Shown in pieces: positions 5,447 through 48,633 of a stretch of DNA of 64,000 bases. Below the pieces are notes generated by a model that had not been told where the DNA came from, searched no databases, and was given only the letters and a program-made list of their open reading frames with translations. The DNA comes from Halichondria panicea (lineage: Eukaryota; Porifera; Demospongiae; Suberitida; Halichondriidae), in assembly GCF_963675165.1 (NCBI RefSeq), contig NC_087393.1, positions 2,671,502 to 2,735,501 of the forward strand, given 5' to 3'. The position numbers and the translations under genes are program-made. Position 1 is the first letter of the stretch; the number at the start of each line of letters is the position of its first letter.

Positions 5447-8400
5447 CTAGTGTGAGCTAAGCATTTTGATGTTTTGAAAAATATAGTTCACAGTTTCATT
5501 CTCTTCACATTTCTTAAGAGCATCCACTAAATCTTTGTAACGTCTATTGCTGGAACGTTTATACCATGTGTTTAGAATTTAATACTTCAGTTCTGAAAGA
5601 TCCCTCATATTTTCATTTTCATATTCAAGGCACTCCACGTCATTTGTAGACAAAGAGAGTTCGCTGGCAACAAGCTTCCAATGCCTTATGTATTGTGACA
5701 ACCTCGCTAATGATGGAGTAGTAACGGTTTGTTCTAAACACTTTTCTTCCTCAGCTGACAGTGGTTTCTTAATTAACACAGTTGAAATATGAGCTTCTGC
5801 TAAAGAAAAATTGAAATGAGTAAAACACTTGATTATTCGCCAATTAATATGCATAGTTGTAAGTACCGTATTACCGTACTAGAATGTTTTGCGAGCATCA
5901 AACATATCCAAACTTGTTTAGTGTTGATCACTTCGCAAAATGAAATTTCCAAACCTAAATTAGTACTGGTAATGACGCTTGCCAAAACGCTAGTTTGGGG
6001 GCCAGACCTTTTCTCAGGGGGGGGGGGGGTGGGGTGGGGGGAGAAGGGAGAAAAAGTCTGGATACTTTTGCAGCATTTCCGCGTGCTCTTAACTTGGAAT
6101 ATCCATTAGTTAGAGACAATGGAGGTTTAAAGAAGTAGTAGATGTAGCAATATACTCTCATTTCATTGGCTTTAACCAAATTCAGACGCAATACTCACAT
6201 TTAAAAATCACATGACATAGGATGTGAATTTCATTGGCTTTGGCCACATTCCGCTAGAGCACACGGAAATGCTGTATGAGTCTCCAGACTAGCTTTACTT
6301 GATTTTCCCCTCGAGATATTAAGTCTGGCCCCCAGACTACTACCAAAACAATTCAAAGGGTATAAACTTTAACTTTTCTGCTGATTTGGCTCATTTGCAA
6401 ACATTAATTTTTGTTTCACCAGCAAAATATTCTAGTAACCGCTACCTATGGTTACCTATACATGTGATTTATATACATGTGCTGTAAATGTTGTAGACAT
6501 ATAATTATATACAAATTTAGTGATATTGAGGCATAATCGGCATGCACCACCATGACAGCTAGAATGTATGTGGACCTATATAATAAATAGGTAGCCTCGA
6601 TTCAAGGCCGCTTTAGAGCGGACTTGAGTCGAGGCTAATAAATAGGGCAATCCATAATAAATTATTATACAGTGTACACTTACTCAGGTACCAATAGCTA
6701 TAGATAGGTCTTGACTTTGCCTATTATTGCCTATTATTCTTATTAAATTGCCTGGTGATACGTACAGTGGTATACTGTAGTTCCATGTTTAACAGGTTCA
6801 GAACTACCTTAAGGTGACATATATTTTCACAGGTAGATTTGTTTGCGATTTCACTGTTTAGCTGCATTTTGCTGGTATTTAAATTCTACTAAAAGTCGTG
6901 AAATTAATGTTTCATACATACTCGCAAATGTTTTAACAATAAGATTCATTGCATTTTCCTGCAGTACAAATTTTTGCGATTTTACTCTCATTCGCAGAAA
7001 ACAGCAAAAATTAATACCTACGAAAATAATTATGTCACCTTAAGGTATAATTATTAGTGCACGCTTGGAACATACAATCACTGGCAAAATGCATAATACC
7101 ATATCATAGCGGGTTATTTTCGAAGCTAATATTTGTTTGTGCGATTACTCATACTGCATGATTGTATTTTCGAGGATAGAGGATTAAATGACCACACCCC
7201 TACAGTAGAGAGGTCTTTCAATACCGGCAGTAAACCATGATTCCCAAATTTTAGAGGCACTAAAATTAATACGACTTAGCTTAGCTTACCAGCTGGTTGT
7301 AAACACATTCCGTAAGTATCTGGAAGAATATTATTTCCATCTCTTGCATCTTTGATTATTAATCAACCTTAAGATGGGATGCATGTTGTGAGACTTGGTG
7401 GATGTCCATAACCATACTCGGAGGGTATAGATCATCTGTAATGTATTCTTCTGCGATCCTGCTGTCCTCTTTTTTGCCAGCGTAATGTTTTACAGTTGCT
7501 TTTTGGATATCACACTCGTTAATCTACAGATCATGATCACAATTTCTTTCGTATACACATCTACATTCACTTACATATTGCTTTTTAGGAGTGACTTCCC
7601 ATTCTTCTGATTCTTTTTTCAATTGATCACACATAAAAATTATTTTTGATGCAGTAAAATTGTATATGCTTGATCAGGAGCCGCGGCTACTAAATGTTTC
7701 ATTTTGCTGGAAGAGGAGGCTACAATTCAAGAGAGGCGTTTATTAGCTCCAGATAATTTAGTTTGTCATCAAAAGTTGTTTTCACCTGCATAAACTTGAA
7801 CTCTGCCATGAGAAAGTCTTTGTGAAGCACTAACAAGCTGCTACTTGTAGCTACGTACATGTAGCTAGCTGCTAGTAATAATTTTTTTGGCTGCCACGTG
7901 CAGAAATGCTAGAGTCAAAGTTCACTGAGGCTACTATTTGAGAGCGGCTACTAAATGTTTCATTTTGCTAGCAAGGGAGGCTACTATTTGAGTGCGGCCT
8001 TTATACAAGAGCGGCCTCTGATCGAGCATATACGGTAGGTGTTTTCCATGATCCAGGCTTCTCTTTCATTCTCTTTTTGCACAACTGTATATATAATTAT
8101 ACATAGTGAGTCTAAATACATTATGTACAGCAATAATATAATAGCCTTACCTCTATTGCACCAGGACAATTCACACATGCATAGATTAAAACTTGATACA
8201 ATGTTTTCCTCTCGTTATTTTGTTCATAAAAAAGCAATACATAGTCTAATTTTGGAATATGTGGTCTAACGTATGGTGGTAGAAATCCTTTCTGAGTTTT
8301 AGTATGAGTATGCTTATTGACAGAGCGTTTACTTGAGTACGTTTGCTTCTGAACTCCTCTATAAAACGATGGCCGATAAACTGCACAGAAAATGCAAAAC

Positions 8401-9852
8401 TCTGTTACTTTAAAGGATACGAACGGTTTTTTGGCTGAAATTTCTGGTAAATCCTCAATGATCGAAAAGACGAACACTCCATCCTCATTGTAGTGAGACA
8501 TATCGGTGTGAAAAACAGCTATTGCAGAGGTGTTTCTATATTCAGGCATGCTTAAACAGTGGGCAATATGAACTGTAGCCGGAGAGGTAAGGTTTCCTTT
8601 GGCAGTTACACAGATAAAATCACTGATTCGATACACATCGCTCGGCAATTCGAATTTGCCACATGCACACGTTCCTGCTTTAAGTGTCAGTTGGACTTTT
8701 ACTGCTCCTGGAGGAATATCAATCTCGAAGTCAGTAATTGGTGAAGACAGTTTACCGCCTTCAGGTCCAACTTCAATTTGTATTGGGCCATTTACAAGGT
8801 TTATGACGTCCATTTCATTGAGAGCTATATTAATTAAAAAGGTAAAAATCTTATACAGTATATAGAACCTCGATTATCCAGCTTGGCAACTTTCCCAATG
8901 ATATAGGGTCAACGAGAATGGGCGTGTCCTTTAAATGTGCATTACAGCTCTTAGCAGGTGCTTATTTTCTGCGCATGCGTAGGCAACCATGTGCACTGCT
9001 GTTTATCAATTAAGTGGGTAGATCGAGGCGTGGTTTATCTATTCATTCATATTCAGTTATCCGGCCTGCCTCTGGAACCAAGGTGCCCGGATACAATCGA
9101 GGTTCTACTGTACGTGTATCGTAAAATTGTTATAATACATGTAGACGATTACTTAGATTTGCCTGTTATACTATTGTTATACTACCCAATTGCGGCGGTA
9201 GAGCATTCATGATATTTCCGTAGGCCCAAGCCACATAAAACAGGCAGCTATAATTACATTCATGCACTCTTGATGAAATGCACAGTTCATAGTATTACTA
9301 AACCAATCAAGATACATGTACTATGATACATGTACTATGATAGATCAAAGTGTGGGAAATTTCAAAACTAAAAAAACAGTAGAGCGACATCAAATGCCAT
9401 TCAAACTCACCACTTGTACTTGATGTTGTACTTGATGATGGATGTAGGTCATCCTTCAACACTGTAACTGGGCTTTTACTTTCGGCCAAAATCACATCCT
9501 GTACTAGAGACGCCTTGAGGTGTGGAATTTGATCTTCAAAGTGTGTACAATGACTCTCATCAAATGTACGAATCGCTCCTCGTATTGTTTCTAATATAGA
9601 CACATCCACATTGGTGTCTTTCACACCAACGTCACGTATGCACTGGGTAAAAGTCACACATGTCTCAAAATCTTTGATTCGTATATAATTTGTCAGACAT
9701 TTCATTCCATTTTTGCCAGTAAACTTGCTCCTGTCAATTTCTCGAAGCACATTCCTTTCAACAAGTAACGCAATAAGATTCGTATTGTCTGTTACGCTGC
9801 TACGGATTTCTCTCTCGAGTTCAATAAATACAAAGTGATGAGGCTGACTCAT
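5447..9852 (-). CDS. CARD + ZU5 + death-domain protein with in-frame stop in the death domain
   Basis: Probable death-fold signalling adaptor. Exon 9411-9852 starts at ATG and encodes a CARD-like helical bundle (RNVLREIDRSKFTG, then a leucine-rich end) and a Ser/Thr-rich linker. Exon about 8155-8827 holds a ZU5 domain (GPEGGKLSSP, IDIPPGAV, followed by a UPA-like stretch). Small exons follow at about 7570-7640 and 7372-7530. The last exon, from about 5803, has the first half of a death domain (SQYIRHWKLVASELSLS) and then TAA at 5579-5581. The same frame continues after it with ILNTWYKRSSNRRYKDLVDAL to TAG at 5447-5449, which is the missing second half. A C-to-T change from CAA would explain the stop. 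Known ZU5-death proteins include UNC5, ankyrin and PIDD; a CARD at the front is unusual. Linkage of the five exons is inferred from strand, order and phase; two genes are possible. Confidence 0.62.
5865..6428. mobile_element. MITE of the TACCGTATTACTA family, interrupted by another MITE
   Basis: Both ends carry a CCGTAxTAGAATgTTTTGC-like inverted repeat (5868-5895 and complement near 6400-6428). Its body matches the copies at 28151-28304 and 49077-49258 (motifs AATGAGCCAAATCAGC and GAAGTGATCAAC) once the insert at about 5991-6342 is removed. Confidence 0.7.
5991..6342. mobile_element. 352-base MITE inserted inside an older MITE
   Basis: Ends are TAGTTTGGGGGCCAGAC and the complement of TAGTAGTCTGGGGGCCAGAC. 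Flanks are GCCAAAACG on the left and ACCAAAACA on the right, an imperfect 8-base duplication of host sequence. It contains a second inner inverted repeat (about 6056-6090 and 6257-6289) and a G10 run at about 6018. Confidence 0.65.
6592..6637. mobile_element. 46-base palindromic mini-element with 9-base target duplication
   Basis: The element starts TAGCCTCGATTCAAGGCCGC and ends as the near inverse, GACTTGAGTCGAGGCTA, so almost all of it folds as a hairpin. ATAAATAGG flanks it exactly on both sides (6583-6591 and 6638-6646). Same family as 20716-20781 and 45280-45348. Confidence 0.8.
6807..7045. mobile_element. MITE with perfect 15-base inverted ends
   Basis: Ends are CCTTAAGGTGACATA and TATGTCACCTTAAGG. 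A TA dinucleotide flanks both sides, so a Tc1/mariner-type origin is possible. The interior has TTTGCGATTT and TTTTGCGATTTTAC but no coding content. It lies in the intron of the CARD/ZU5 gene. Confidence 0.75.
7680..8036. repeat. degenerate repeats related to the GGCCGC palindrome family
   Basis: Several stretches such as GAGGCTACTATTTGAG, GCGGCTACTAAATG and GCGGCCTCTGATCGAG recur in both orientations, with GCTACTAAATGTTTCATTTTGCT present twice (about 7686 and 7948). It looks like decayed, overlapping copies of short palindromic elements in an intron. Confidence 0.45.
8856..9110. mobile_element. pogo/Tigger-type MITE, copy 1
   Basis: Ends are CAGTATATAGAACCTCGATT and the complement of CAGTAGAACCTCGATTGT, flanked by TA. 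About 75% alike to 34241-34538 by eye (shared ATGGGCGTGTCC, TATTTTCTGCGCATGCG, GGTTTATCTATTC). CAG(TA)GAACCTCGATTATCC ends with a TA duplication are typical of pogo/Tigger elements. No transposase. Confidence 0.8.
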
Positions 9853-10749
9853 TCTGGGACAGTGTCTGTGGCAGATATAAAACTTTTTCTCAAGTCTTAC
9901 AATCTACATGTAGATTCTGTATTAAACTGTGGTCTGTGGTTAGCCCACGCAATAAATATGGTAAATTCAGTCCAGAGGCAGCTCCCCAGCCTCTTTCACC
10001 GGCCTTGAATGAAGTGCGGCCTGGGATCTAGGCATTACCCAGCCCCTCTCACTAGAGCGGCCTGGAATCGAGGCTATATTCGGTGCAGTGCTATGCCAGT
10101 GACCCTCAGGCTCCCTACCCCCCCCCCCCCAGGACCAAGATCATTGGTAATTATAATATTTATGCTTTCTGTGTATCAAGATAGTGCTTTATTCATTGAT
10201 CAGGTATTATTGGTCTGCATGAATATGATCTACTGTTTATACTCTGCATGGATCCATTCCAAGAACACTCAACTCACTGTATGTATGAATACTGTTTACA
10301 CTTTAGGATCCATTCCAAGAACACTGTAACCAATGTGCTTGATGTCACATTTAAAATGTTGCAACATCAAACACATTGGTTTACTCGGTTACTCATTGCA
10401 CGCATACCTATAATGGCATAACAACATCACATGATTGCGGATTTAGGGATTTGGGACTATTAATAGAAACTGTGGAGCTGGCATATCATAACATAACAGT
10501 TAGATAATTCTGTGTGTGTGAGTGTCTAATTTACTGTCTGTGTGACCTGCCGAGTTCTGTCTGGCTCATTCAGCTCCAGTAACCTGCAGCTCTTACCCTC
10601 AACTTTTTCGTTATACTTCCTATGAGTGAGTTAATGTAGATCTATAGTTGTTGTTTATTGCTCATTGCTCATTCTACATTATAGATTCCATTTGGCTTTG
10701 AACACTCTCCTTAACCTCATTCACGATAATATTATATGTACCCGTACCC
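9853..10749. other. 897-base gap between CARD/ZU5 and HELZ2-like starts
   Basis: No gene seen. It separates two divergent starts. About 9990-10075 holds two overlapping copies of the TAGCCTCGAT palindrome family. A C11 run lies near 10120. A direct repeat containing GGATCCATTCCAAGAACACT occurs at about 10249-10268 and 10308-10327. CAACATCAAACACATTGGTT mirrors ACCAATGTGCTTGATGTCAC at about 10328-10380. Confidence 0.6.
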
Positions 10750-13700
10750 ATGGCTATGGCCTCAGGTACTAGAGTGGTATTACCATGGGAGAACATAGTT
10801 TGTGCAAATTGTTTAGACAAAAATCCATACGCCATTTGGTTAGTAAAATATTGTTGCTTTGATGCGCAAGCTCACAAACAACCACGGACAACTGTTGTAG
10901 TAATTGATGTGAAGAATGTTAAGCTTGTCAGAGTTAGACAGAGTCCAACTGGGACCAAGACTGGAGGTCCCAAGATGTGTAAACAACAAATGTCTCGAGG
11001 CACATGCAGAAATGGAGATAGTTGTACTAAAGCACACTCAGAAATTGAGCTCGATTGCTGGAATGCGACTTATTTCTTAAGACAAAGTAAGTTATAATTA
11101 TTACTTGTGTTTACGGCTCTCAGCAATACGTCATGATACATTTCACAGAACACGAAGACCTCATGAAACAGCTGGGAGTGCTTAAGCCCACTATATCATC
11201 GGAAGTTTGCAAGCAATGCCTGTCTGCTAATTCGAGAGCTGTGTGGCTGACTTGGCTAACATGCACTGACAGTAGCCATGCCGGCGAAGACCGTGTCACT
11301 GTGGTCATGAGGAGAGAAGCAATGGAGTTGGTAACTATTCCCGTAGAGTCAGGCCACAAAACACGTGCCTGTAAGGAAGGGGGTAAATGCAAAAAAACTG
11401 ATTGTTCATTTGCTCACAGTCAAGAAGAGCTTGAATACTGGAAATGGTCCAAATTGAGTGGAGAAATTTACAGAAAGCTGGAAAAAGTTTGTTACCCTGT
11501 ACACCAAATGACAGTTAATGTGAAGTTCAACTACTTATTACAGGTGTCTATGGACGTTTGCAAGAGCTTTTCCTACCCATGTGATAATTCAGCCTCTATG
11601 ATGGATACAGCCGGGTGTAGACAGCTTTCATGTGACAACTACAAAGAGAAGTTCCACAAACTTATCTATCTTGATAATCTGGAGCATGCCAGGAAGATGG
11701 TTGCAGAGTAAGAAATCTAATTACAAGAAATGTACAGTTATAAGAAATAGACAATAGTCTAATGATTATCATTTACACTTACCCCAATTCTGGTCATTGG
11801 TTAATTCTTGGTATGCACAATTTGACATGACCACCACAGGTGTGATGGTGACCTGACCATTGACAATGATCCTAAACATGGAGAACTTCAAACAAAAGAA
11901 GTTCATGTCGTGGGCATGAGCAGCACGAGCATGGATTATGCTTTCCAGAAACCAGTACCATGCAGAGCAGATATTACTGTATATGGTGCTGCTAGTGCAA
12001 GCCACATTTCCGGTAACGTTGAGAGTAAAGCAGACAATACTTTGGTTGTGAGAATTAAGGCAGGTCAACTACCACTGCAATTGCCTATAAAAGCTAACGT
12101 TCACTTTGAGTACGCTCACTGGAAATTCCAGCGACTGCACTGTGCCATTGAGTATGCACAACCTCAGCTGATAAAAAGACTCACGGCACCTCTACCTTCG
12201 CCTGTTCTAAATGATCTGTATATCCCTGAATTTGAATCCATCCAAATTGATAGTGAATATCAGCCAATAGTGTTGAGGAAGATTTTCAAGGGTGGACTAG
12301 GCTCCCCATTTCTTCTGCTTGGTCCTTTTGGCACTGGCAAGACACATCTTTTACTGGTAGCTGCTTTAGCACTAGGAACGGCTGGTGGCAGAATCCTCAT
12401 CTGCACACATCATAACAGAGGAGCTGATACTATTAGCAAGAAACTTGCCTCTGAGCCAGAATTTGCTGATAAAGTTCTTCGATTATACCCAAATAATTCA
12501 GAAGCATCAAAAAAGCACAGGTTTTTTTGTAGTGCATCAGCACCTAATCTAATCCGCTCTGAATTTTCTTGCTATACTATTCTGGTGACAACTTTTACAA
12601 CAGCCCTAAAACTCATTGAGCGACAAGACCTTCAGGGAAGTTTGTACTTCTCCCATATTATAATTGATGAGGGTGCACAATCCAGGGAACCTGAGGCACT
12701 GGGAGCTTTATTAATGGCAGGACCACAAACCTGTCTCATCATTGCTGGTGACAACAAGCAGGTAAGCTAGTATCAGTTGTAGCAGGAGTGCATGCACTCC
12801 TGGTAGTAGTATGCACTTTTATTCAGGTTTGTCTTCTCATAAGGTTGGTCCCAATGTCTTGGTGCTGAGTGATGTAGCCAGAAAGAATGGCCTTGGTGAA
12901 TCCCTTATTGAGAGACTACTGAAGCTCTATGAACAACGAATGCCAAAAAGCTTGAATCAATCCCGATACTCCCTCCTTACAAACTATCGAAGCCACCCCT
13001 CCATCCTCATGCTAGCATCCACTTTGTTCTATGATTGCACCCTTCAGAGTCGCAGCACAATCCAGACCCATCCCCTGGCCTCATACCCCATCGTATTTCA
13101 GTGCTCCTCTCTCCAACAAAAAGAGGTAGGGGTATCCAGATATGTGAATGAACAAGAAGCAAAACTGCTGGTCAGTAAAGCCCTGGAGTTTATTACAACA
13201 TGGCCTGAAAATGATTTAAAACGGACACCTTCTGTAGCATTAATGGCTGGATCGGATGCACAGGTAACGATGTTGTATTATTGTAGGTACTAATATTTCA
13301 TGGATATACATGTAAAATTTAGGTCAACTGTTTACGCTCGGAGTTTGCCAAGTTGCAGCACACCCAAGATTTGTTGTGCTCTGCCAAGTTGCAGCACACC
13401 CAAGATTTGCCGTGCTCTATTCAGTTCTCCTTGACGTACGCAATCCAAGGTCTATACTATTGGTGTATTTCTATCACTGTATGTGATACTATAGTGAGTA
13501 TATTGATTTATCATCTCTTATTTAGTTAGTCATCACTTGAACGATTTAACTGTAGACACACATTGTAGCGGGTCTGGTAATTAATGATTCTTTCCTATGC
13601 AGGTAGCGAGTTTGATGCTGTGTTTTTGAGTACTCACGAGCCAACTGACAAGGAGAGTAAACCACTTAACACTGTGCGGAGCATCTGCAATGAATACGTC

Positions 13701-20156: not shown

Positions 20157-20996
20157 GGAGGACTAACACATTTTACTGGTATTATTTTATTTGTATATGT
20201 ATATACTTAGCATAATAAATTTTAAGAATAGCGCACAACACCCTTCCTTGACTCCTGTACCTATATAGATGTAAATTATAGAGCTAGTTCTAATGTATAC
20301 TTATCAGTGTAGCACTTAATTATGGCTGCATGCATGTATTATATATAATTATACCCTTTTGTTCACAGCATGCACATATAATTTATGCCTCGGTGCGCAT
20401 GCGCAAATGGGGTATATACGCTACTTGGAATGCCATTGCAGCCTTTTCAGAAGAATGCGTAGAAAAACTTGTCCATAGATACAGCCATACTACTTGGACT
20501 TCATCGATCCTTTTTAACAACAATCATGATCGATCATTACCCACTCTTTGAGTTTCTCTGCGACTCTGGATTCTGCCTGCATGCAGCAAAATTAATAATA
20601 CACGCCACATTATAAACATTTTAGCATTAATTTATTTGCTGCATGGTATAGCTTTATATTGGGTGACCGGCATATATATTAGTTACAGTATTATAATGAA
20701 GATCAAGGCATACGGTAGCCTCGATCCCAGGCCGCAGTTCCCACTTCACTTAGGGAAGTGGAAGGCCGGTGAAGGAGGCTAGGCATACGGGTGTGAATGC
20801 TGCTTGTTGTAAAAATAATGGCCTCTGCACTATCTACAATTATGCTTTCTTTGGCCCACCTCTATTGCAATAATAAAATTATTTTTGTTAACCAGAAACA
20901 ACGGAATAAATAAAAACTGATTAATTCCGTGATAATCACATAATAATATTACTTTATCTCTGTTATATGCCCTTAATTAGTATACAACATATAGCT
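20157..20996. other. 840-base gap between two convergent genes
   Basis: No gene seen. It contains AATAAA-type signals near 20214 for the HELZ2-like gene and the 66-base mobile mini-element at 20716-20781; otherwise AT-rich. Confidence 0.6.
20716..20781. mobile_element. 66-base palindromic mini-element with 9-base target duplication
   Basis: Starts TAGCCTCGATCCCAGGCCGC and ends GTGAAGGAGGCTA; the middle has an inner CCACTTC/GAAGTGG hairpin. GGCATACGG flanks it exactly at 20707-20715 and 20782-20790. Confidence 0.8.
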
Positions 20997-26900: not shown

Positions 26901-29900
26901 AATTTAAATACACCATGTATGGCCATCCATGCAGGTAATAATTATATCAAACTAAACTATCTACAACAGTCTGAACTGAATGCGTAAAAATGGCCACACA
27001 AAATGATTCTTCCACAAAGGAATTGGAGGAGCCTGATAATAACCTGGAACTCTCTCTTCTGAATTTTGAGATTGAGCGCCTCAAGGGAGGATTGTAATAA
27101 ATTTAGCTTTCTAGCAGTGGGGAGGTCTGGAGCAGGAAAGTCCACCCTTTTGAATGCCTTGACAGACACAAAAGTCTTCAACAGCTGCAGTGATAGAAGT
27201 ACAGCCGGTACCAAAATCGTTTCTTGTCATAAATTTGAGAAAAATGGTGTAACAGTCACGGCGTGGGATAGCCCTGGATTTGAGGATTATTTAGGCAACG
27301 AAGAAGAGTACAGGAAGAAATTAAGAGAGAAATGCAGTGAAGTAGATCTGGTATTGTATTGTATATCATTGATGGATACTCGTGAGGTAAATCTGAAGGG
27401 CGAGAACTCGTCCCTAAACCAAATTACCAAAGCTTTCACAGGTGATGTGTGGGACAAGAGTGTGATTGTTCTCACATATGCGAATATGTTAGAAGAGCGA
27501 TTCAAAATTGACGGGAAGAACGTAGAAGCTGCTTTCGCACAACAGATTGATATGTGGAAGGAAAAGGTCCAAGATGCTCTTAGACATGCAGGTGTGGATG
27601 AAGTGATAGTCAAGCAAATTCAAGTAGCTGCCGCAGGCCACCCCAGCAGAAAACATCTTCCTGGACGCCAGTTTTGGTTGTCATTTCTTTGGATTGTATT
27701 GCTTGCTGCTGTGAAGAATGAACATGCCAAGCTAGCGCTACAAAAAGCAAACGAAGACAGATTTGTGCCAGAAAAAGACGGTGAAAACAGTTCACCCACG
27801 TCATTAGTTGTGACAAAAGACCACGTTGCAATTTTAGCTGGAAGTGCTGTTGGAATGGCTGGTGTTGCTATTGGTGGTACAACTGGTGCTTTGATCGGTG
27901 CTTTGGCAATTGGAATTCCAACCTTCGGAGTGGCGGCAGGTTTTGGGCTCGTGTTAGGGCTAGTTATTGGCGGTGCTGTGGGCGGAGGAGCTGGTACTGG
28001 AATAGGCACCATCAAGAAAATTCGAGACAAAAGGAGGAAGAAGAAAGAGGGTCGGTCGGAAAGTGAAAGCATTTCTGACTCAGGGGAAACATAAATGCTT
28101 TGAACCCTGAATCATACTAGTATGTAAATAATTGTTTATGGTTTGTATACTACCGTATTACTATAGAATGTTTTCTTTGCGAATGAGCCAAATCAGCAGA
28201 AAATTTTAATTTGCGATCTAACTATCGCGTTTTGGTAAGGATCGTGTGTCAAGTATTACATGTAGATATTTTTGCGAAGTGATCAACGCTCTAGTTAGAC
28301 GGTATGTGATGATGTCATGCACTGCACATAGGGTAAATATATGTGGTCAAATTGTGTAACCGTATAGCATGAACATTTTTGTACAAACTATCCGTTTAAA
28401 TATTTCGAGTGCAGGATAATGACGTTGAACCTATTGTGCCAGAGCATTTTTTGCAGTTTTAATTTTTGTAGAATATACAGTACTTTGTGTGGCTCAATGT
28501 ACTGTACATGTCAGTATATAAGAGAATAATAAGGCTATTAGCTTAGAGACAACAATAATGAAAATCTGCATGGGCCAAGTACAAGTACAAATGCACGCAC
28601 TATCATCAATTTCTCTAGGTTGAAAATAATATTGGCCTGTTAAAGATTGTATCTGGCATTTTTGAGCGAATTCCAGTGGCTGTAGTAAAACTAAATAGCC
28701 ATTAGGTATTCACTACGTAAAAGTTCCCGCACTCACAAAAAGTAATTTAGTGCCATAGCTACCTCATGACAAAAGCTAGCTAGGCATGGCGACTTGGCAA
28801 TTGGTGAGTTAAAACTTAGAGTCTGACAAAGCACTGGACTATGCACTGCGTTGTCTGAAACAAGAATTAAGGCGTCATTCCAATGAGCACAAGTCTAGGC
28901 TGTCAAACTCTTGGTGAAAGAAGGGACGTTTTTGTAGTGGTTACCTTATGGGGTTCAACATGCAGCGTGGACATGAGTTCTTGTTTCACACAATGCAGTG
29001 CATACATGTACGCTTCATCGCAGCCTAAGGTTAAACTCATACTAACCATATTGGCAACTCCTTCTCCTTTCTTTCATTATGACACGAGGGACGGAGTGTA
29101 CTCAATGGGCATGCATGCGTATATACACATACCTTTACGATACTTTTCCTTGGAATTCCCCTGAAAAGAGATAATCTCCTAACCACGTCTCTTTTCAACT
29201 TAACGTAAAAGCAGCCTGGCTAGCATTATTATGAGAAGCTTTAGAGTGTTACATGCAATATCAAGTATGTAAGGACAAGAGAAATGTATTAGGTGATAAT
29301 ATTGTACAAGAAAATTGCTGCTGAGAAAGGCTTATTAATAATTAATATGAGTATGATGATTACACTTAATCGTATGATGTATTATTGATGTACTATTAGT
29401 GCACTGGAATGTGCACATGCATGCTATTTACTCATGCTATTAAACCCAGTTAAGCTGTTGCAAAGGGAAATTGATACGTCATAAAATTAAGCCCATATAC
29501 CGTACTTATTCGATTTAAGGCGACACTTGCTTAAATAATTATGAAGCCAGAGGTCGTTTCTTTTGGAGGTTGAAGTCCTGGTGTCGCATCTAATTGGAGG
29601 TTACTCTACTATCCTCGATTATAGACCGCTTAAATTACATTGTTTCTTTGCGGCCTGGAATCGAGGCTGTGGTTTGACCTCTATTTAGGACGTGACATAA
29701 AAAAATAATTATCAACGCAGCAGTCGCTACTTTTAGATGTCAGAAAATTGGAAAAGATCGTAGGTGTCGCATAATTGGGGGGGTCGCTTTAAATCGAATA
29801 AGTATGGTAGTCCTCTCGCTTCCTTGTGTATAAATTACTGTATAGCGGATGTATAAATTTGCACAGACAGAATGATCGATAGAAGGTTTTCGTGGAATAG

Positions 29901-31627: not shown

Positions 31628-33297
31628 ATGTAGACTACAAACCTATGTCTACACTCATACGTTTTATTGAACTCTATACCATACATGTATGCACACAGAC
31701 AATTACAGTTACCCGATATATACGAATAGGAACTATACAGAAGCTGATAAATCCATTAAATACCAAGGCGACAGTAAGTACACTACATCCAGACAGGTTT
31801 GAGTATTGTAGTAGTGAATAGCACACATCAGCTCAACGACATTTAGCACCATGCTTCAGAACAAACCACCCTTGTATACCATTATCCTACAGTACAACAT
31901 AGTTATGCATGACATGTTCATGAGAAAACTGAGTTTTCCATCGCGCCCTTGCAATGGCTTGCATGTGTTTTTGCGCCACCACTAGCTAGCTTCATTAACT
32001 TTAAGGGTTAGGGTATAAAAATCACAACAGAAATGAATTAAACTATCGCACCCAAATGACCTCAGTCAATCAAGAGGTTAATTACAACATTTGACCAGCC
32101 TTCTGCAGCTAGAGGTTATACCCATTTTAATGTACTGGTTTGCTGCAATGGGTATAGCAAGCTGTTCAAGCAGGAAAATGAACTATCAAAAATACCAAAG
32201 GCTCTAGCTGTTACTGCTGTTACATAATTAATAAGATGCAGAGGTCAAAAAGGCAAGACAAGAAATTAAGGTGCAGATCGAGGTCAAAAGGCAAGACAAA
32301 AATGTTAAACGGTATACAAAAGCATAATGTAGGGTCTGTAAACAATTATAATGATCTGCAATTCAAAATGATCATTATAGGGGCAATTCAAAATGATCAT
32401 TATAGGGTATTGTGAATGATTACCATAGAAACTGGATTATTAGCCTAGCTTTACTCGATACAAACGGATTTTGATTTTAAGTGCACTCAAATTTAAGCAC
32501 TTTCCAATTATGCGAATGAAATTAGTGAGGATTCTTTGGGCACACTGCATGTACCCAAAGGCTTGTCTGATCATGCTGAGAGAATATGAAACTTAGATGA
32601 GGCGGACTTTGACCCTTTGTGTTACAGTTCCTGTTTTAAAATATGAATTTATAAATGTTGTAAATTGAGAATACAACATGATACAGATGTAGTTAGAATT
32701 GCCTGCTTGCCTAACTCGTTCTCTTTCCAACCATAAATCCAACGCAGCTAGCTATATAGTGAGTCATCACTCGTCACAGGGACATCCAGTTACTCGATGG
32801 GGCTCGAAAATAACTGCGATAATTTATAAGCACATCCTCGAATATAAGCGCATAGAGCTCTGCTATTGACCCCATTAGCGCACACGCTAATAATCCATGG
32901 TATAATGACGTCGAGTGATGTTCATGTTTGATTTAAGAGGGTGAATATGTTATATAGCAGGAGGTTATAGGCATAAAGTTGGTGACAGTAAGGAGGTGCC
33001 GACGCGTTCTGCCAAAACCAGATTCAGTTTTGGAGAAAATTTCGTATTAGAAGCAGTGGGTTATACACACAGCAACATAGAAATGTAAACAATAATTATT
33101 CAAAAAGTTCTGATCAACTGATTTTCCTGAAATAATTATAATGTAAAGTAAAATTCTATGCGTTAAGAAAAAGCTTCGAAAAAAGTTGAGAATAAGAAGC
33201 AGTTGTTTCAATAATTACAAGCTTTAAGTAAAAGTACATACAATTATCACACTGTACAAACAACAGCAACAGAAAATCAGACAATTAATACCTCTTC
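31628..33297. other. 1.7-kb gap between exchanger start and PH-gene end
   Basis: No gene seen. A 25-base tandem repeat GCAATTCAAAATGATCATTA lies at 32358-32407. A looser repeat with AGGTCAAAAaGGCAAGACAA lies at about 32244-32298. The rest is AT-rich. Confidence 0.6.
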
Positions 33298-36200: not shown

Positions 36201-38354
36201 CTTGTTTGAGCTCATTCGTTGATTCCTGTGAGTAAGCAAGTAAAAGGAGAGTTACATGTGTGTAAGTTGGTAAATCTTATGTCAAAGTTTACAACACTAG
36301 GAATTTAATATCGTGATACTCTCTACCCACCCAAAGTATTACAAAGCCAAATAGTGTACAATTCATAACATGAGATTCATTGCATGATAGGCACAGCTCT
36401 ATCCTTTTCTTTGAAGCTGCATTGTGCCATTAAAACACGTCAAAACTGCACTGGTCAGCTAGGCCATCAAAAGTAGCCACACACACCCGAGACACCAAAT
36501 TAACGCTCCCGATAAACAATAATTGCTATAATTATTATATTATCACATTGATTACTATTTGACTTCTCTGTATACACAAACTCCTTCACTAGTACTCACG
36601 GATGACTGCTGAGACTCTCCCTCCAGCCTTAGGGCAGCTTCCTCCACTGTTACCCTGGCCTTATCCCCCAGGGGGTTCTCTAATAGCGAGGGGAGCCCTT
36701 TGAAGCTGGTTGAGATGGGGGTGGCCGGTTCACTCTCTTTCTTCCTCAGGGAAGCCTCCAGGTCGTGGGCTACCTGCTCTATCTCCTGTAACCTTTGCTA
36801 GGAGTGCAGTGTATGTGACGTGTACATGAACATGAACACACTAGATACAACATCATGTACACTATTTCATTAAAAAGCTTACTATCATAATGCAAAAATC
36901 AATACACATACATACACACACCTGTACATGTAATTTGTCATAATGTCAAAATCACAGTGACACTAAACTAAAATGAGTCTTGGTTGCACACATAAAATAT
37001 TGATGTGTATATTCATCAACATCGGCCACGTACACACACCTTCTTGGATGATTACCTGTGTTTCACTGAGGTCCTCCTCTATTGTAGCATTGTTGGTCTG
37101 AGCATCCTCCAGGTCCTGTCTGGTCACCAACAACTCTTCCTCCAACTCCTGCATGTGGTGACGGGGCATTGGCGTATCGTACGTACATGTATGTGTAATT
37201 GTTAGGCAATTTGTACAGCTAGGTTAACTGGAAAATCAATTTATGTACACACTGTGAAGGGGGCAGTAATTGCATCGCCATTTGGTCCATTAAACGGTAC
37301 GCAACTTAGCAATCCAATGCCACATTAAACCAAGTTTTTAGTGTACAGTGCGTGTGCACTGAGTAAGCCCATACAGTACAGGCAGCTCAAACATAGTGAC
37401 AAGTACATCACAGACTGTACAACAGTACCTGCACTTTGTCGAGTTGCTCCTCTAGTTGTGTCTGCACACTGTCATTGACCGTCTCTAGCTCTCGTTTAGA
37501 CTTCTCCAGGCGAGATACCTACATGTATCATAGTACTATGAACATTGCAAAGGATAAGTGTCATACATGTAGCTGAGTGGTTGCTGAAAGACAGAAGCTA
37601 CAGTACCTGTTTATAGGCATCAACTGCATGTATTTACTAACCTGTGCTGACAACTGCTCATTCTCATCCAACAGCTCCTTTTCTCTAGAGGAGTGTGACC
37701 TTTTGACCTCCAATAGTTTCTGTTGCAGCTGTTTGTTGTGTGCAGAGTTTGCTTTGAGGTCAGACTGCAGACTGGCTAGCTTGTCTCGCAACGCCTCCAC
37801 CTGTGCAGATGTGCATATGCTACATGCATGTACACTCACTATAATTATTGTTACAACACACATACAATTATGTGTATTGAAGATTCTACACAAAATACTG
37901 TTTATACGCAGGAAAATCAATGTTGATAACTAGTTACAGGTACTAGATCACTAGGTAACCAAGCACATGTAGCAACAAACTAACACACTCACCTCTGCCT
38001 CTAGCAGCTGTACCACACTGTCTTTGTCCTCCTCCCTACCACTAGAGCCCCCTGTTGCTCTGTGTGGGTGTAGTCAACACTACTATACATGGTCATGACG
38101 TTAAAACAACATGCAACTTAATTCGTGTTATGAATCCTACATGTGGTATGCATTCTTTACACTCGACACACACACGTATTGATTGTCCATAACTAGTCTA
38201 GCTCAGTGAACTCACTGCACATATTTCCTCTCACTGACTGGAGTGGTAGTGGTGGCGGTGTCCCTATCACTGGTGCTAGTGGCTGACTGAATGGAAGTGT
38301 TGCTGCCAGTACGGGGGACACTGGATGTAGAGGGATCCTGTGGGTTGATGGGTG

Positions 38355-38387
<33 letters not shown>

Positions 38388-41300
38388 CATTTATGAGTAG
38401 TTGGACGGTTGGGATGGGGTAGCATACCGAGTTGTGTGTGTAGGATGGATGTGTACCGTTCTGAACGAGTGTGTATATAACCGAAACAACATCATTTACA
38501 TACGCACTAGGAAAACACTCAACTAAATAAGCTAAACACAACTGCTCACCCGAATGTCTGCAATGAGTGTCAGGGTGTGAGAGAGCACTGCTGTCCAATC
38601 ATCACAGTCGTCTTTGTTCTCAGCTGACAGGTTATACACTCGACCTGGCATCTGCGTAGGTAGGTAGGTAGGTAATACATACAATAACATAACATAGTAG
38701 TAATGCTTTTGATGAAAACTATACGTATGTTTGTGGTTTTCGCTGATTAAGTATAAATATATAGCGAACATTTATACTCACGTATTTAATATTACACACT
38801 ATACATGCATGCATGCTGCAAAAAGGCTGAAATTCCAGGAAAACTTTCTAAGGCATTTCCGCAAAAGTTTATACCCTTATACTCAGACAGACACACACAC
38901 CAGCCAACAATAAGTACTATAACCCGTGGCCGCTTATGCACCTCGGGCTACTGAAATAAGAATGTGCGGAAACAGATACCAGCAATATCAATACTATTGT
39001 CAGGTACGTATGTATTAGTAATGAATGTGTAGACATGCGTAAATATAGTAACAAACAGGAAGTGCTTGATTGATATTGAATTGCAGGGTTCAAGGGTGAA
39101 AGTTAGGCAATATAGAAACATGGCTTCTGCTATTGAGAGACTATTATGAGCTGTCTTTAATAACATCTACGTATTACACTGACACCTTGATGCAGGTTTA
39201 ATTGGGTATAGCAGCTGTGTACACTAATCTATGGGAGTCAGAATACCCGACCGCAAAAAAATTGCAGGTCACACTTCAACCGTGCATACACAGTGACTCA
39301 CATGGATGTCAATGCCATGTCCCTTTTTCCCTGGGGCATTCTCGATACTGGTGCTGTTGAAGAGATCTATATCACTCAGAGAGGAGTCAGTCTGTATGTG
39401 TGTGTGTGTGTGTGTGTGTGTTTGCGTACATATCTTGCATTTAAGGACTGTCGTAGGTTTCAAACATACAGTTCATTAATAGATACATTATAGTGGTCAC
39501 ACTATCTCACTACTCAGGTCATACACACTGTACACATGCACAGCAGCCGTACACACTATATCTATTAGTTATTACATAACAAAAATTACCTTACTGTCTT
39601 TGTAATAGTACAATTTTCCATTTTTGAGCCTGAAGTAGCGATCCTTCCACCCCTGAGCAACAGAGTTTACACATTTTGTCATGAATTTGCTCTCTTTACA
39701 GTATTTACAAATGACTATACTTATACTGTACGTATCACACACACTGCACAGGAAGATTATAATGTGTAGCAAACACACATTGTGACAGTGAAACATGTCA
39801 ACTCCACCTTGTTATTTGATCCCGTCTTCGCTAACCATCCCTCCTTGGTCAGAAACTTTGTCTACAAAAGTGGGATAGAATTATTACGCTTACAGCTGCA
39901 AATACACACATTCCATAAGAGTATCAATTACTTTTCAACAACACTGTTGCTAAGGCCTAGATATACCGTATAGCGGGTAATTTTCGTTGGTGTAAATTTT
40001 CGTATGAACACATTTATTTTTATTGTATTTGTACAGCTCAGGATAGTGACGTTGAATCTATTACGTTATACAATTTTCGTATGATGCTCTACAATACGAA
40101 ATAAACGAAAATGTCCACCGTATGAAAATAACCTGCTATACATGTACGGCACACAAACGTAAACTATTGAGTAGATGATTTATGGTTGAGCCAGGATCGT
40201 GTCTACATGATCATATTGGTACGAGAGTACACACAGCCAAACAGAGCTGATCATGGACATTAATACAAATACTCACCAAAGCAGAGATGCTCAAATGTCT
40301 GCTCTGTACACTCTCAGCCCTGTCTCTGTCCGACAGTAGAGTGCCATGCCTCCCTTCCTCCGAGAGTGTCCCTCGTCTACCATCATCAGGCAAAGTGCCA
40401 CGCCTCTCACCAGTGGTCAACGTACCCCTCCGCTCATCAAGGGCTTCAATATCTACCTCACACACATCCGCAAACTCACTCATCGGCTATAGCAGCAAAA
40501 ATAAATTTTCACAATGATTTACTAGCTACAATACCAATTCAGAAGCAGCAAATAATACACACAGTTCAGACAATACATGCCATATATGGCCTTCATTGTT
40601 AGAATCGTATAGCCGTAAGTACAAGGAGATCAGCCAAGACAAAACAAAAACAGTGTTGAGAGTTGAACACATCCATGTAAGTTATATGAAAGTGAAACAC
40701 AGATAATGCTTATAACTCCCCTCCCCCCTAGAGAACAGTTAGTCAACAAACAGGATGCTTCTACATCAAGGGCTCTGCTTACCAACACCAATCAATGCTC
40801 ACAAGACCATTGCAGTAGCCATAACTTTTACCGCAAGAGTTCATACACTCTTTGTAGCAAGGCCAGCATGTACATTCATGCATAGCTTGACCAAACCTGT
40901 ACGTAAATCAATATTCATACCTTTATCCACTCTCTATAACTCTTAGCAGACTCGGCCTTTACATAGAATGTCAGATCCCCAGTGTCGATCCCACAGCAGT
41001 AGGAGGTCTGTAGCCCTCGTGACTTGGCGTCAAATAACCGAGTGCATTGCAGGAGGTGGATCACACCAGTTGGCTTGCTCGTCTGTGTACCCCCAGTGGG
41101 ATATTATCGATTACAAACACAGTACCTAATTGTTACTGGTCAGCCTCAGTGAAGTGACAAATGAAATTAACAAGGATTAACAGCTTTCTTTAATTACTAA
41201 TAAATCTAATAAATTGTGTGTGTAATTAACCTACTCTAAGCCGTAGAAGATCGCCATAATGAACGTAGTACTATCATAATTTGTGTAATTAACCTATATG

Positions 41301-41885
41301 TATTAGTAGACCAATACGAATTAGAGAACCTTGCCTCAATGAAAATATGGATCAAAACAAACTCTCCATAATTATTTATATGCGTATGCACGCTAGCACT
41401 CACCTTATCGTTGTCATAGAAGTATAGGTCTCCGCTGGTGTTTAGTTGGAACCATTTTCGCTGCCACTTCTGTAGAAACGTGAAATTAATGTCGTTGGAT
41501 ACAATTATGTATAAAAGACAAGATGTTTTTTTATTTTTATGATATTTATCCAGCAAAGGAAAGGGTAGCACAATAGACTGTTAGATCTAGGCCTCTCAAG
41601 GGTGCATGCTCCCCATAACAAAAATAAAAACACAAAATTAATAAAAAAAATACTGCTTAAAATGAGAGATAAATAAGGTATAAGGTGAGATTGTAGGGCT
41701 ACTTTAGAACTAGTGAGAGAACTACTACATACAACAGAGCTAGGTAGGGAGTTCCACAAAAAACATCCTCTATAACAGTAATAAATCATAAGACTCACCT
41801 TAAAATTATGCACATATTTAGATACATCTGGAGCCTTGACAAGGTAACCCTCCTTCAACACAGCCTCCTGGATAAATGGATACAT
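33298..41885 (-). CDS. tandem PH-domain, long coiled-coil protein
   Basis: About 20 short exons on the minus strand with GT-AG junctions. PH domain 1 is spread over exons at about 41800-41867 (LKEGYLVKAPD), 41405-41468 (KWQRKWFQLN, LYFYDNDK) and 40930-41085 (ending YREWIK with the conserved Trp). Exon 40276-40492 is a linker with four RRGTL-like repeats. PH domain 2 lies in exons near 39835-39865 (EGWLAKTG), 39590-39655 (GWKDRYFRLKNGKLYYYKD), 39305-39395 and 38550-38650 (DDWTAVL). A Ser/Thr linker follows at about 38215-38340. Heptad-rich coiled-coil exons run from about 38060 down to 34870. The last exons hold a proline-basic stretch (PPPKPKRPPK, about 33680-33730) and end NDDDVKPLRAF with TAG at 33298-33300. 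The PH domains suggest phosphoinositide binding. The first ATG is 41885, but TTTATCCAG inside that exon could be an acceptor for an earlier exon. No confident orthologue. Confidence 0.75.
34241..34538. mobile_element. pogo/Tigger-type MITE, copy 2
   Basis: Starts CAGTAGAACCTCGATTATCC and ends in its complement; TA flanks both sides. The ATTATCCGG motif recurs several times near each end. It lies in an intron of the PH gene, with no transposase. Confidence 0.85.
38356..38383. repeat. (GT)n microsatellite
   Basis: GT run of about 13 units just past an exon of the PH gene; a similar run is at 39397-39421. Confidence 0.9.
39965..40148. mobile_element. 184-base MITE, CCGTATAGCGGGT family
   Basis: Ends are CCGTATAGCGGGTAATTTTC and the complement of CCGTACATGTATAGCAGGTT, with ATTTTCGTATG inside both arms. 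Related ends (GCGGGTTATTTTCG) occur at about 7110 and 33815. Confidence 0.65.
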
Positions 41886-42135
41886 GTCTAAAAGCTAGAT
41901 CTGTGTGGCTATCATAATTATCACACAGCTGTACAACTAGATTCAATTATGGATGGTCGCTTGGCTTATTCCAATTCTTGTCTAGCTTACCCCCATTTTT
42001 CAATTGTAAGTATTAAACTACACACTACAGTAGCACTAGCACTGGACTCAACTACACAGCTAGCTAGCTTGATCCGGGCAGCCAGGGGAGGAGCAGAGAC
42101 GTTGTCTTGCGTTGTCTGTGCTCGAATCCGGGAAG

Positions 42136-42162
42136 GCCGCGGTTTAATTATTAAACCGCGGC
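42136..42162. promoter_or_regulatory. 27-base near-perfect palindrome upstream of GMC copy 1
   Basis: Arms GCCGCGGTTTAAT and ATTAAACCGCGGC around one T, about 78 bases before the ATG. Copy 2 has the left arm and centre at 46458-46478 with a degenerate right arm, 65-85 bases before its ATG. It could be a dimeric factor site or an old hairpin element; only position and conservation support it. Confidence 0.45.
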
Positions 42163-42239
42163 TTTTCCAGCAGACAACAGCCTGCAGGATTGACAATCTA
42201 GGCGTGTCATTAGTATGCAGCCCCCTGATCCTGCTTTGA

Positions 42240-44047
42240 ATGGCTATTAGCAAACTTCTAACTGGCTCTCTAGTTGTCGTTGTTGGTTACCTAGCCTTCC
42301 AACTGCTTACATGGACTCCACGTAATTCTCCCTACAGAGTGGTGAAAGACAAGGAATTTGACTTCATCATTGTGGGTGCTGGCTCCGCTGGTTGTGTATT
42401 GGCAAACAGACTTAGTGAGATTGAAAATGTTTCAGTCCTACTCATAGAAGCAGGGCCACCAGACGATAAACCTGAGATACACATTCCGTTAGCTGTCAGT
42501 CAGCTCCAACTCACAGATATTGACTGGCAGTTCAAGACAGTACCTCAAGAGAATTGCTGTGGAGGATTAAATTCTAGACAATCGGCATGGCCTAGAGGTA
42601 AAGTTCTTGGTGGATCGAGCTCTATAAATGTAATGATGTATACCAGAGGTAATCGAGAGGACTATGATAGATGGAACAATTTGTACGGGGCCACAGGATG
42701 GGCATACGAAGATGTGTTGCCATACTTCAAGAAATCGGAGGACTATCGAAGCGAAGATGGTGACAGCGATTTTCATGGCCGAGGAGGACCAATGGTTGTT
42801 GAAAAATGTCGTTATGTTACTCCAGCAGCAAGAGCATTTGTGGACGGAGCCAAGGAGATAGGATTGCAAGAGATTGACTACAACGGCAAGTCACAGATAG
42901 GAGTGAGTCTAAATCAACTAAATAGTAAGGATGGTGCTCGATGGAGCACTGCACAAGCATTTTTGCATCCTGTCCGGCATCGTCACAATCTTTTTGTGCT
43001 GACAGAAAGGACTGTGCAGTCATTAGAGACAAAGTGACTGGTGTGAAGGTAATTGATAAATATGGCAGTGAGAGTATCATACAAGCCAGAAAAGAAGTGG
43101 TGCTGTCGGCCGGAACAGTGGGCTCTGCACACATCCTTTTATTGTCAGGAATTGGACCAGAGGAACAATTGAAGAAAGAAGGCATCCCTCTGAAAAATGA
43201 CCTGCCTGTTGGAAAAAACCTTCAAGACCATTTCATGGCGTTAGTAGCCTACTCCTCGGATGTCCCTTATCAATCTGGACTTTCACTAACCACTCCTTAC
43301 GTTGAAACGTTGACCCATATGGTACAGTACATGCTCTTCGGAAAGGGACCTCTCTCTGTCTCTCCAGTCGAGGCTCATGCTTTTGCACAGTCTGGTTTGC
43401 AAGAAGACGGTGATGGACGTCCGGATATTCATCTCCTCATGCTAGGTGGACGCGGAGATAAACAGTTTGCTGATGACTTGAATTATGATAAAGAGAAGAT
43501 CCATGAATTGGTTGGACAGTTATGGAGTGATGAAGAGCTTGTTGTTGTAACTCTTATTGCTGGCGTACTGCACCCTAAGAGTGTTGGTGAGATACGGTTG
43601 AACCCCAAAGACGTGTTTGGACCACCATTGATTGACCCAAAGTATTGTAGTCATCCTGATGATGTTGAAATTGTATTGAAAGGCATTCGTATGTTGGAAA
43701 AGATTCAGCAATCTTCTTCTTTCGACATATTTCGTACAAACAGCAAGATGAACTGTACCCTATCAAATGCCAAGTCTCCTTATCCTTTTGCTTCTGATGA
43801 TTTCTGGCGATGGTACATTTCTCATCTTCCATTGACGATCTATCATCCTGTTGGAACGTGCAAAATGGGCCCGGAAGATGACCCTAGTAGTGTAGTGAGC
43901 CCGAGACTAAAGGTGAAGGGGTTTAAGAACCTCAGAGTGGTAGACGCATCAATCATGCCTGAGATTGTAAGTGGGAACACTAATGCTCCAGTTATAATGA
44001 TTGCTGAAAAGGCAGCTGACATGATCAAGCAAGATAATAATTTATAG
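42240..44047 (+). pseudogene. GMC oxidoreductase copy 1, disrupted by a 10-base deletion
   Basis: Nearly identical to the intact copy at 46543-48357 along its whole length and also intronless. The first frame (ATG 42240) has an N-terminal hydrophobic anchor, the FAD dinucleotide motif [15 protein letters not shown] and the GMC signature [15 protein letters not shown]. It stops at 43037, just after TVQSLET. The rest ([10 protein letters not shown] onward, [17 protein letters not shown]) continues in another frame to 44047. Copy 2 has 10 extra bases (GAGTGGAGAC) at this point; copy 1 kept one GAGAC where copy 2 has two. That is the mark of a microhomology deletion. No other frame break was seen. 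The copies also differ by an in-frame nine-base indel at about 43463-43480. The second frame keeps no FAD motif, so a working enzyme is unlikely. Confidence 0.85.
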
Positions 44048-44779
44048 ACTAGTTGTTATACATTTTTGTGAGCAGAGGTTTAGAATCTATATCTAATAAT
44101 TATTATAAATATTAATATAGCAGCACACAAACATATAATTTCTCAGTCCTTAGTTGTTATAGCTACATATATATAATCTAACTTTCAACTTTGGGAGCAC
44201 AACCCCTGTGTGTGTGTGCACATGTAGATACAGTGCACAGCATAGACGAGTATCAGTGTTTAGTAGTTTAGTTACTAATATTTCATTCCAATTCTTGTCC
44301 ACAAACATAAAGTGAAGAAACAGGGTGTATGCGTCTAAATACAGAGGCTAACTAAGAATCACAAAAAGAGGCAATACGGTAAGACTACAAAGAGATGAAT
44401 AAAGTAGTAGCGCATTGCGTGATTAAATTCTATTGCGTATTACGTAACATGATACAATAACGGAAAACTGGTAAAGGTGGCTACAGACATCAATAATGAT
44501 AAAGATCGTTAATACAATAAAGTAAAGTGTTCACTACAAGTGTATATACATGTATGTGAATGCATTGTCAAGTGAATGAATGTATAATCACATTTTCGAG
44601 GCACTTCAATTTCGTGGGATCCTTTTCAATTTCGCGCTATTTATTTTGGTCAAATTGACATTTGTGTCTTCCGTTAGTGAAGCATTATATTTAGTGGTTC
44701 GTGGGATTGCTAACTCACAAAAACAAGCATCTCGAAAATGTTGCGCTATGCTGTATACAGATAGATTTTAGTAACTCTA
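44048..44779. other. 732-base gap after GMC copy 1
   Basis: No gene seen; AT-rich, with AATAAT signals soon after the stop. Confidence 0.6.
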
Positions 44780-46062
44780 AATTGGCAATTGCATGTACTC
44801 ACTCTCTGTTTCACAAAATTTCTCCCGATATACACAAGCACCTCTTGAATTCCCACCCACGGCGTGTCTGCACCACACAGGTACCACCATTCTGACATCC
44901 ACAGACATCTGCTGGAGGAGGAGTCCCAGCAGCCTGTAAAACACATCGCAAAATGAAATTATTAATGAAGGGCAAACAAATTAAGAGCTCATTTGTAGCA
45001 TATAAATATGTATTTACTCACCTTAATCATCACAAATTAATTTTGTATCTGAGAGATACACAGCCATTAAATGCTTGGAATTCAATTATGTGAGTCGATC
45101 CCTTTTGAACAGAGGAACTCGATACCCAAGATACTACAACAATATTCACAGTCTCTCCTGTGGATAAAGTGATACACTTCTGTTCTGCAAAGTTGCAATA
45201 AATCTGGGGGAAATAGTAGTAAAATCAAACTTTGAAGCATATGAATTCAGATTGCTAACAGGAAAAGCTGAAATTAAATTAGCCTCGATTCCAGGCCGCA
45301 CTTCATCACTTCTCTTCAGGGGAGGCCATGCACCAGTGAAGGAGGCTAAAATTAAATGTATCAGATCGATCAATTTCGATAGTTGTATCACCATTAGCAA
45401 CGAGCTCATACTCTCCAGGTCTGAGATCCTAACACCACTCGTATCGACTTCTTCTAGCAAATAAGTGTATTCTCCCCATGGGAATGACATGTTTGCTACA
45501 AATGCTCCCTTTGTCAAGTGCACTGTTTGGACGACATTTCGATTGCTGTCTAACATGGACAACTGAGGCTTAACTATCAAAAAACTTCAGGAAGTTGGCC
45601 ATAGATAGCATCACTCCATGACCTGACCAGCAGAACCTGCACCAGAAATGTGATAATGTGATAAGTATAGCCACATCTGTCATGCTGAGTAACTTAGTCC
45701 CATGCCTATATAATTATAATTATGTAATTATTATGTACAACAGGCAATGCAATGCATCCATGCAATTACGAACATTTACAGTCCCCCCCCCATCCCAGGC
45801 CAAAATTAAAGGCACCATGCATGCAAATAAATTATGCTTTTCCTCAATATAATTATACTTACACTCTGTTGGTGGATTAATTGATGCAACAAGTGTTTCA
45901 GTATCAGTCTTCTTCGTGTAATATCCAAAGAATTAATCTTGGTCCACAGAGAACTTGAAGTCTCCTGAGCCTAAGCACGCTAACCATTCTTCTGGTTCTG
46001 GGGATAACGCTCTGAGTGAACTACAAGTCTTGCACCTGCAAATAGTTACCTCAATGTTGTTC
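44780..46062 (-). pseudogene. remnant of a secreted EGF/hemicentin-like protein gene
   Basis: Pieces of an extracellular protein on the minus strand between the two GMC copies. At about 45860-46010 the translation shows SSLRALSPEPEEWLACLGSGDF and then an in-frame TAA. At 45580-45640 a segment LLVRSWSDAIYGQLPEVF runs into TGA, and the next part (IVKPQLSMLDSNRN, then FPWGEYTYLLEEVDTSGVRI) lies in another frame, one base off in a six-T run. A further shift precedes DLRPGEYELVANGDTTIEID. A 69-base mobile element with a 9-base duplication sits inside the next coding stretch (45280-45348). The last piece, at about 44794-44936, encodes a Cys-rich EGF-like unit (CGCQNGGTCVV) ending in TGA. Strand and order make one decayed gene likely. 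The resemblance to the extracellular part of VWA/hemicentin-type proteins is from memory and weak. Confidence 0.5.
45280..45348. mobile_element. 69-base palindromic mini-element with 9-base target duplication
   Basis: Starts TAGCCTCGATTCCAGGCCGC and ends GTGAAGGAGGCTA. AAATTAAAT flanks it exactly at 45271-45279 and 45349-45357. It interrupts the decayed EGF/hemicentin-like gene. Confidence 0.85.
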
Positions 46063-48357: not shown

Positions 48358-48633
48358 TTGTTATACATTTTTATGAGCAGAGGTTTTACAATAGAGCTAG
48401 CTATAATACAAAATGTACCTCATAGGGAATGCAATTTTTTCTCGGGGCCAGGGGGGTTTACAACAAAAACATGTTAAAGGGGGATCCCCCTGGTGGAAAG
48501 ATAGCTTCCCCCAGAGGTATGACATCTGAAGCAAATTACATTCTTTCTTATTCATTTCCGGGTGTCTGCTCGAAATCTTCATGAATTTTCTTTAGGCCAT
48601 ATAAATACATCTACACTACAATAGTATTCGGCT

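Follow-up and report, generated by a model that had tools for sequence, protein, structure and literature searches.

Ultra-short MITE-like elements of Halichondria panicea share their ends with long elements encoding DUF6589 and RecQ helicase

Micro-elements of the window and their family

The window analysed here, a stretch of 64,000 nucleotides from the genome of the sponge Halichondria panicea, contains three stand-alone copies of a short element, 46, 66, and 69 bp in length, each lying between perfect 9-bp repeats (Table 1). Copies this short raise the question of how the two ends can be brought together by a transposase. Their positions and flanking repeats agree with a first-pass annotation made from the sequence alone, while its description of the family as palindromic applies to part of it. 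With DNA fold z values of -8.3 and -3.5, the 46-bp and 66-bp copies agree with the description. It fails for the 69-bp copy, for which 80 of 200 shuffles fold equally well and whose clear inverted portion is the outer 7 bases (TAGCCTC/GAGGCTA). A full-length hairpin is therefore dispensable, and a hairpin was rejected as a requirement, since the 69-bp copy has perfect duplications yet lacks a significant fold. The window contains 10 instances of the shared end itself, TAGCCTCGAT at no more than one mismatch, compared with a mean of 1.9 in 100 shuffles, none of which reaches 10.

The same annotation had listed further decayed or nested copies. Those at 9988-10076 (nested and decayed) and 29610-29669 (decayed) stand as described, while the matches at 56942 and 57892 are probably the opposite ends of a single 951-bp copy. 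A 67-bp copy elsewhere in the genome (L126) consists of the outer 37 and 31 bases of this 951-bp copy, with 1 base shared. The window also contains a duplicated GMC oxidoreductase gene (42255-44081 and 46561-48386; 95.9% identity over 1837 bp).

Table 1. Micro-elements, target-site duplications (TSDs), and relatives in the window
Feature	Position	Strand	Remark
TSD left of 46-bp micro-element	6583..6591	.	ATAAATAGG
46-bp micro-element	6592..6637	+	equals outer 21 + 26 bases of the long elements L051/L052, 1 base shared
TSD right of 46-bp micro-element	6638..6646	.	ATAAATAGG
Decayed and nested micro-elements	9988..10076	-	no clean 8-10-bp duplication
TSD left of 66-bp micro-element	20707..20715	.	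GGCATACGG
66-bp micro-element	20716..20781	+	ends unlike: left TAGCCTCGATCCCAGGCC, right TAGCCTCCTTCACCGGCC (read inwards)
TSD right of 66-bp micro-element	20782..20790	.	GGCATACGG
Decayed 60-bp copy	29610..29669	+	no clean 8-10-bp duplication
TSD left of 69-bp micro-element	45271..45279	.	AAATTAAAT
69-bp micro-element	45280..45348	+	ends unlike; whole element without fold (z -0.09)
TSD right of 69-bp micro-element	45349..45357	.	AAATTAAAT
Probable 951-bp non-autonomous relative	56942..57892	+	flanks differ at 4 of 9 positions, hence no clean duplication

The family is abundant beyond the window. Across the 131-Mb genome (39 contigs), the TAGCCTCGATNCNAGGCCG end is found 1884 times on the forward and 1848 times on the reverse strand, with 0 + 0 matches for the reversed-pattern control. 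Patterns of the form TAGCCTCGAT...AGGCTA give 850 + 853 matches at 34-64 bp and 214 + 233 matches at 65-95 bp, the latter including chance continuations past a short element, and the controls again give 0. The first 100 matches at 34-64 bp represent 72 distinct loci, 28 palindromic ones being counted twice, and extrapolation from 7.9 Mb of one contig gives about 1200 loci of this length genome-wide. For the analysis of duplications, 68 of the 72 loci were used, and clustering by their flanks resulted in 50 independent sites.

Target-site duplications and empty sites

Duplications of 9 bp flank micro-elements at many independent sites, as the first-pass annotation had proposed from the three window copies, and empty sites bear out the same claim. 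Before clustering, the 68 loci comprise 27 with a perfect 9-bp duplication, 11 with one mismatch in 9, one with a perfect 10-bp and one with a perfect 8-bp duplication, and 28 with none. Among the 50 independent sites, the corresponding numbers are 22, 5, 1, and 1, leaving 21 without an 8-10-bp duplication, some of which look decayed or nested. A null set, in which the left flank of one cluster was paired with the right flank of another, yielded no perfect and two one-mismatch repeats in 2450 pairs. The four remaining loci of the 72 divide into two with a perfect 9-bp repeat and two with none, and in the 65-95-bp list one of six short copies has a perfect duplication (L124; not L123 or L126-L129). 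Longer copies picked for pairing ends mostly behave similarly: of eight elements of 1057-1096 bp (L001-L008), five have perfect 9-bp and two perfect 10-bp duplications and one has a mismatch, and L027-L046 include 16/20 with perfect 9-bp duplications, one with 10 bp, one with 8 bp, and two with none (L027 having none at its true end). The 9-bp duplications include 53 distinct and varied sequences, 26 of which begin with G and 23 of which end with C, a weak symmetric preference.

The characterization of these elements as extremely small is also upheld in the 50-site sample, where perfect duplications flank copies down to 39 bp. At the 24 independent sites with perfect duplications, the elements span 39-60 bp, with 10 of them below 50 bp and 14 at 50 bp or more.

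Loci related to occupied sites, in which the element is absent, show the insertion. A 58-bp element lies between two copies of GTTAAAGGT in L018 and L019, while relatives without it (L115 and L116) carry GTTAAAGGT once, and 11 contiguous matches to this empty site were found at 81-99% identity. Likewise, a 47-bp element lies between two copies of GTGGTATCA in L057 and L066 and is missing from L117 and L118, which carry GTGGTATCA once; here, 40 of the 40 matches listed cross the junction at 84-99%, 11 of them at 99%. This 47-bp element splits a multi-copy sequence whose joined frame resembles a PHD finger by eye. For a third repeat, 5 contiguous matches were found, at 75-81%. Of 14 aligned loci from a family of 1.3-kb elements, 11 contain a 49-bp micro-element (nine by pattern, two with altered ends); L013 and L038 lack it, and L036 does not align there. 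The 9-mers beside this micro-element are similar, not identical. Since the 9-mer is single at empty sites, the flanking repeats do not predate insertion in the cases tested, which speaks against the possibility, raised by the first reading of the window, that the repeats had been there beforehand. No empty site for the three window copies was found within the window.

At three places, two elements stand in tandem, parted by one copy of a 9-10-bp duplication (L026:222-341, L139:51-236, and the junction of L013 and L027). In each of the first two tandems the duplication is present three times, with one mismatch in the first of the L139 copies, which points to repeated insertion at one target. 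Outside the L013/L027 junction, the 10-mer has no clean repeat.

Duplications around a short element could also arise if the copies had transposed as long elements and then shrunk in place by deletion, and some short loci do lack a duplication and look decayed. We consider this quite improbable, because near-identical copies of 58-59 bp lie between different duplications (GTTAAAGGT, GGGGGGTGC, AACCTGACC, CACTGCTGT, and ATTAATTAC), and the same deletion product is unlikely to form repeatedly at separate sites. The short copies would thus have moved while already short.

Long elements with the same ends and the candidate enzymes

Longer elements with the same ends were reached by protein searches starting from L013, a 2.45-kb element, also with these ends, that encodes a zf-AD domain above the Pfam cut-off and a piece of a helicase, and whose flanks differ at 3 of 10 positions and so form no clean duplication. 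One of them, L051, is 5643 bp long and flanked by the duplication GTGTTTACC. It matches DUF6589 (PF20231) on two stretches (E 1.9e-15 and 2.7e-31), DEAD, Helicase_C, and RecQ_Zn_bind on the opposite strand, and zf-AD at E 4e-4, under the Pfam cut-off. The C-terminal part of its helicase matches WRN (E 4e-29) and also RecQ. L052, a 3161-bp relative, shares these ends and is flanked by GGTTTTCGT, and L113, a further L051-type locus, has one end within the stretch examined, DUF6589 in pieces, and a zf-AD score under the Pfam cut-off. The element in L114 measures 6092 bp, with inverted ends identical over 84 bases and a 10-bp duplication, CCTCGCGCCC; it has matches to DUF6589 (E 1.1e-6, just over the cut-off), DEAD (E 9e-11), and a ZAD-like domain, and it shares its ends with the 1.1-kb family L001-L008. 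An extra open frame at L114:2053-2553 looks by eye like a Ulp1-like cysteine protease, with no Pfam match at E 0.1. L027 (4103 bp between its ends) was rejected as an autonomous parent, as it has no long frame recognised by eye and no duplication.

Genome-wide, 92 DUF6589 matches fall into 63 clusters. For 23 of these, a ZAD match lies no more than 7 kb away, against about 0.6 expected. Both ZAD and RecQ matches accompany 6 of the 63, a count that uses 43 of 150 RecQ matches, picked by eye and without a control. The 40 clusters with no ZAD match within 7 kb may in some cases belong to other elements. When DUF6589 sequences are aligned, a G-D-x-x-T-x-x-R motif is invariant in 14/14 loci and D-W-H in the 13/13 that have letters there. 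No clear relative with a solved structure was found, the one match having an E of 0.96, and DUF6589 goes unmentioned in the open-access literature searched. Through the shared ends, transposase with a RecQ partner becomes a candidate role for this Pfam family, which has no assigned function.

The first-pass annotation had instead suggested Mutator-like transposases (MULEs) as the driving enzymes, and a search for a MULE with the same ends found none in the 6 of 31 genome MULE-domain matches examined, each over a stretch of about 3.2 kb. Ends like TAGCCTCGAT do occur at four of these six loci. In L021, L023, and L026, complete micro-elements lie within a conserved repeat, as passengers, and in L022 there is a broken piece. 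At L021:2884-2919 and L023:2902-2937, the passenger is a 36-bp copy flanked by GGAAGTTGC and seems to be carried along by its MULE family. Because an inverted copy of the sequence beside this 36-bp insertion lies about 3.5 kb away, the family appears to have its own, different inverted ends; no empty site was found in it, as none of the matches listed crosses the junction. Duplications of 9 bp are typical of MULEs. That a Mutator-like transposase acts on the TAGCCTCGAT ends would agree with duplications of this length, which are present here and are not specific to MULEs, and with the 31 MULE-domain matches in the genome. Such an origin is nevertheless very unlikely, given that the ends occur only as passengers or a broken piece at the MULE loci examined, and that the long elements with the right ends bear ZAD-like, DUF6589, and RecQ sequences instead. 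Least probable of all is that segmental duplication, or carriage within other repeats, has spread the copies in place of their own transposition: more than one sampled locus does fall in 10 of the 50 flank clusters, and one micro-element is carried by the 1.3-kb family and another by the MULE family, but this accounts for some copies only, as 40 of the 50 clusters are single loci in the sample and 24 own a perfect 8-10-bp duplication.

The relation of short to long elements is most direct where a short copy is spelled by the two ends of a long one. We compared the ends of seven longer elements with 86 short copies of 35-344 bp, of which 74 measure 69 bp or less, and nine reproduce exactly the ends of a single one of the seven: the 46-bp window copy, L102, L112, L126, L016, L042, L043, L044, and L127. 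The proportion among copies of at most 69 bp is 5/74. For the 46-bp window copy, the match to its two ends is identical against L051 and L052. Of the other 77 copies, 5 are nearly spelled by the seven and 72 are unexplained by them, including the 66-bp and 69-bp window copies, for which no parent was found in this set.

We therefore favor, with a probability of about 0.86, the reading that the micro-elements are ultra-short MITE-like elements, internally deleted from the long DUF6589/RecQ elements whose enzyme mobilises them. The family's long members, of 5.6 and 6.1 kb, bear sequences for a ZAD-like zinc finger, for DUF6589, and, on the opposite strand, for RecQ. Internal deletion would have removed the interior of longer elements until hardly more than two ends were left, and the enzyme of the long elements would excise these short copies and insert them at staggered target cuts of 9 bp, sometimes 10 bp. 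Here, DUF6589 is the presumed transposase, RecQ would help transposition, and some present-day long copy may be intact and active.

Comparison with known systems

Within the known superfamilies, the closest match for the long elements is AcademH, reportedly discovered by Kojima in 2020 (Mobile DNA 11:15). Based on the helicase together with the 9-10-bp duplications, the long elements are probably AcademH, with DUF6589 as a candidate transposase. According to excerpts of the published accounts, AcademH elements have target-site duplications of 9 or 10 bp and a helicase (PMC10045372; AcademH is also treated in PMC10799480), features matched here by the duplications of L051 (9 bp) and L114 (10 bp), the helicase gene, and the inverted ends. 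The long elements are also of Academ size, at 5.6 and 6.1 kb compared with the 5565 bp that curated bivalve Academ elements average, as given in an excerpt of PMC10294476. In contrast, the ZAD-like protein and derivatives of 35-69 bp are absent from those parts of the AcademH descriptions that were compared. A further helicase-bearing group is KolobokH, which the relevant portion of PMC9587614 describes as having a RecQ helicase alongside a DDD/E transposase and as reported only in fungi, with RecQ on the complementary strand in one rhodophyte Kolobok. The RecQ helicase, and its position on the complementary strand as in the rhodophyte element, are shared with the long elements here. Membership in Kolobok or KolobokH was rejected, however, as Kolobok duplicates TTAA, while the duplications here are 9-10 bp, with 53 distinct 9-bp sequences.

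The micro-elements resemble MITEs in their inverted ends, duplications, high copy number, lack of coding capacity, and longer relatives that share their ends, and are filed here as an extreme new variant of them. MITEs are generally 50-800 bp, and the default minimum of MITE Tracker is 50 nt (PMC6171319, in part). The elements with perfect duplications differ in falling at 39-60 bp, with 10 of 24 sites below 50 bp. Part of the population is thus under the default minimum of at least one MITE finder and could therefore be missed in other genomes. No such micro-elements were found in the open-access literature searched, including that on very small MITEs.

How two ends are brought together on so short a DNA is a question shared with the internal eliminated sequences of Paramecium. 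As described in sections of PMC3464196, these sequences are transposon-derived, reach down to 26 bp, show a length periodicity of about 10 bp in which the second size peak is forbidden, and are termed unique-copy. Like them, the micro-elements are transposon-derived and far shorter than DNA readily bends; unlike them, as far as these sections go, the micro-elements occur in multi-copy families, duplicate 9 bp, and are without phasing. Length phasing at 10-10.5 bp was not seen in 27 perfect-duplication copies (24 from the independent sites and three further ones), a sample with little power (Rayleigh p about 0.5). Because DNA so short loops poorly and the lengths are without helical phasing, a different mode of synapsis may be used. 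It is tentatively hypothesized, as a possibility we hold to be doubtful, that a helicase-encoding transposon system moves substrates of less than 50 bp consisting of two ends of about 18-25 bp, with synapsis occurring between the ends of separate copies or on RecQ-unwound DNA. If the elements do move at this size, they come close to the smallest substrate that a eukaryotic transposase can use and offer a direct test of the loop-formation constraint inferred from the lengths of the Paramecium eliminated sequences.
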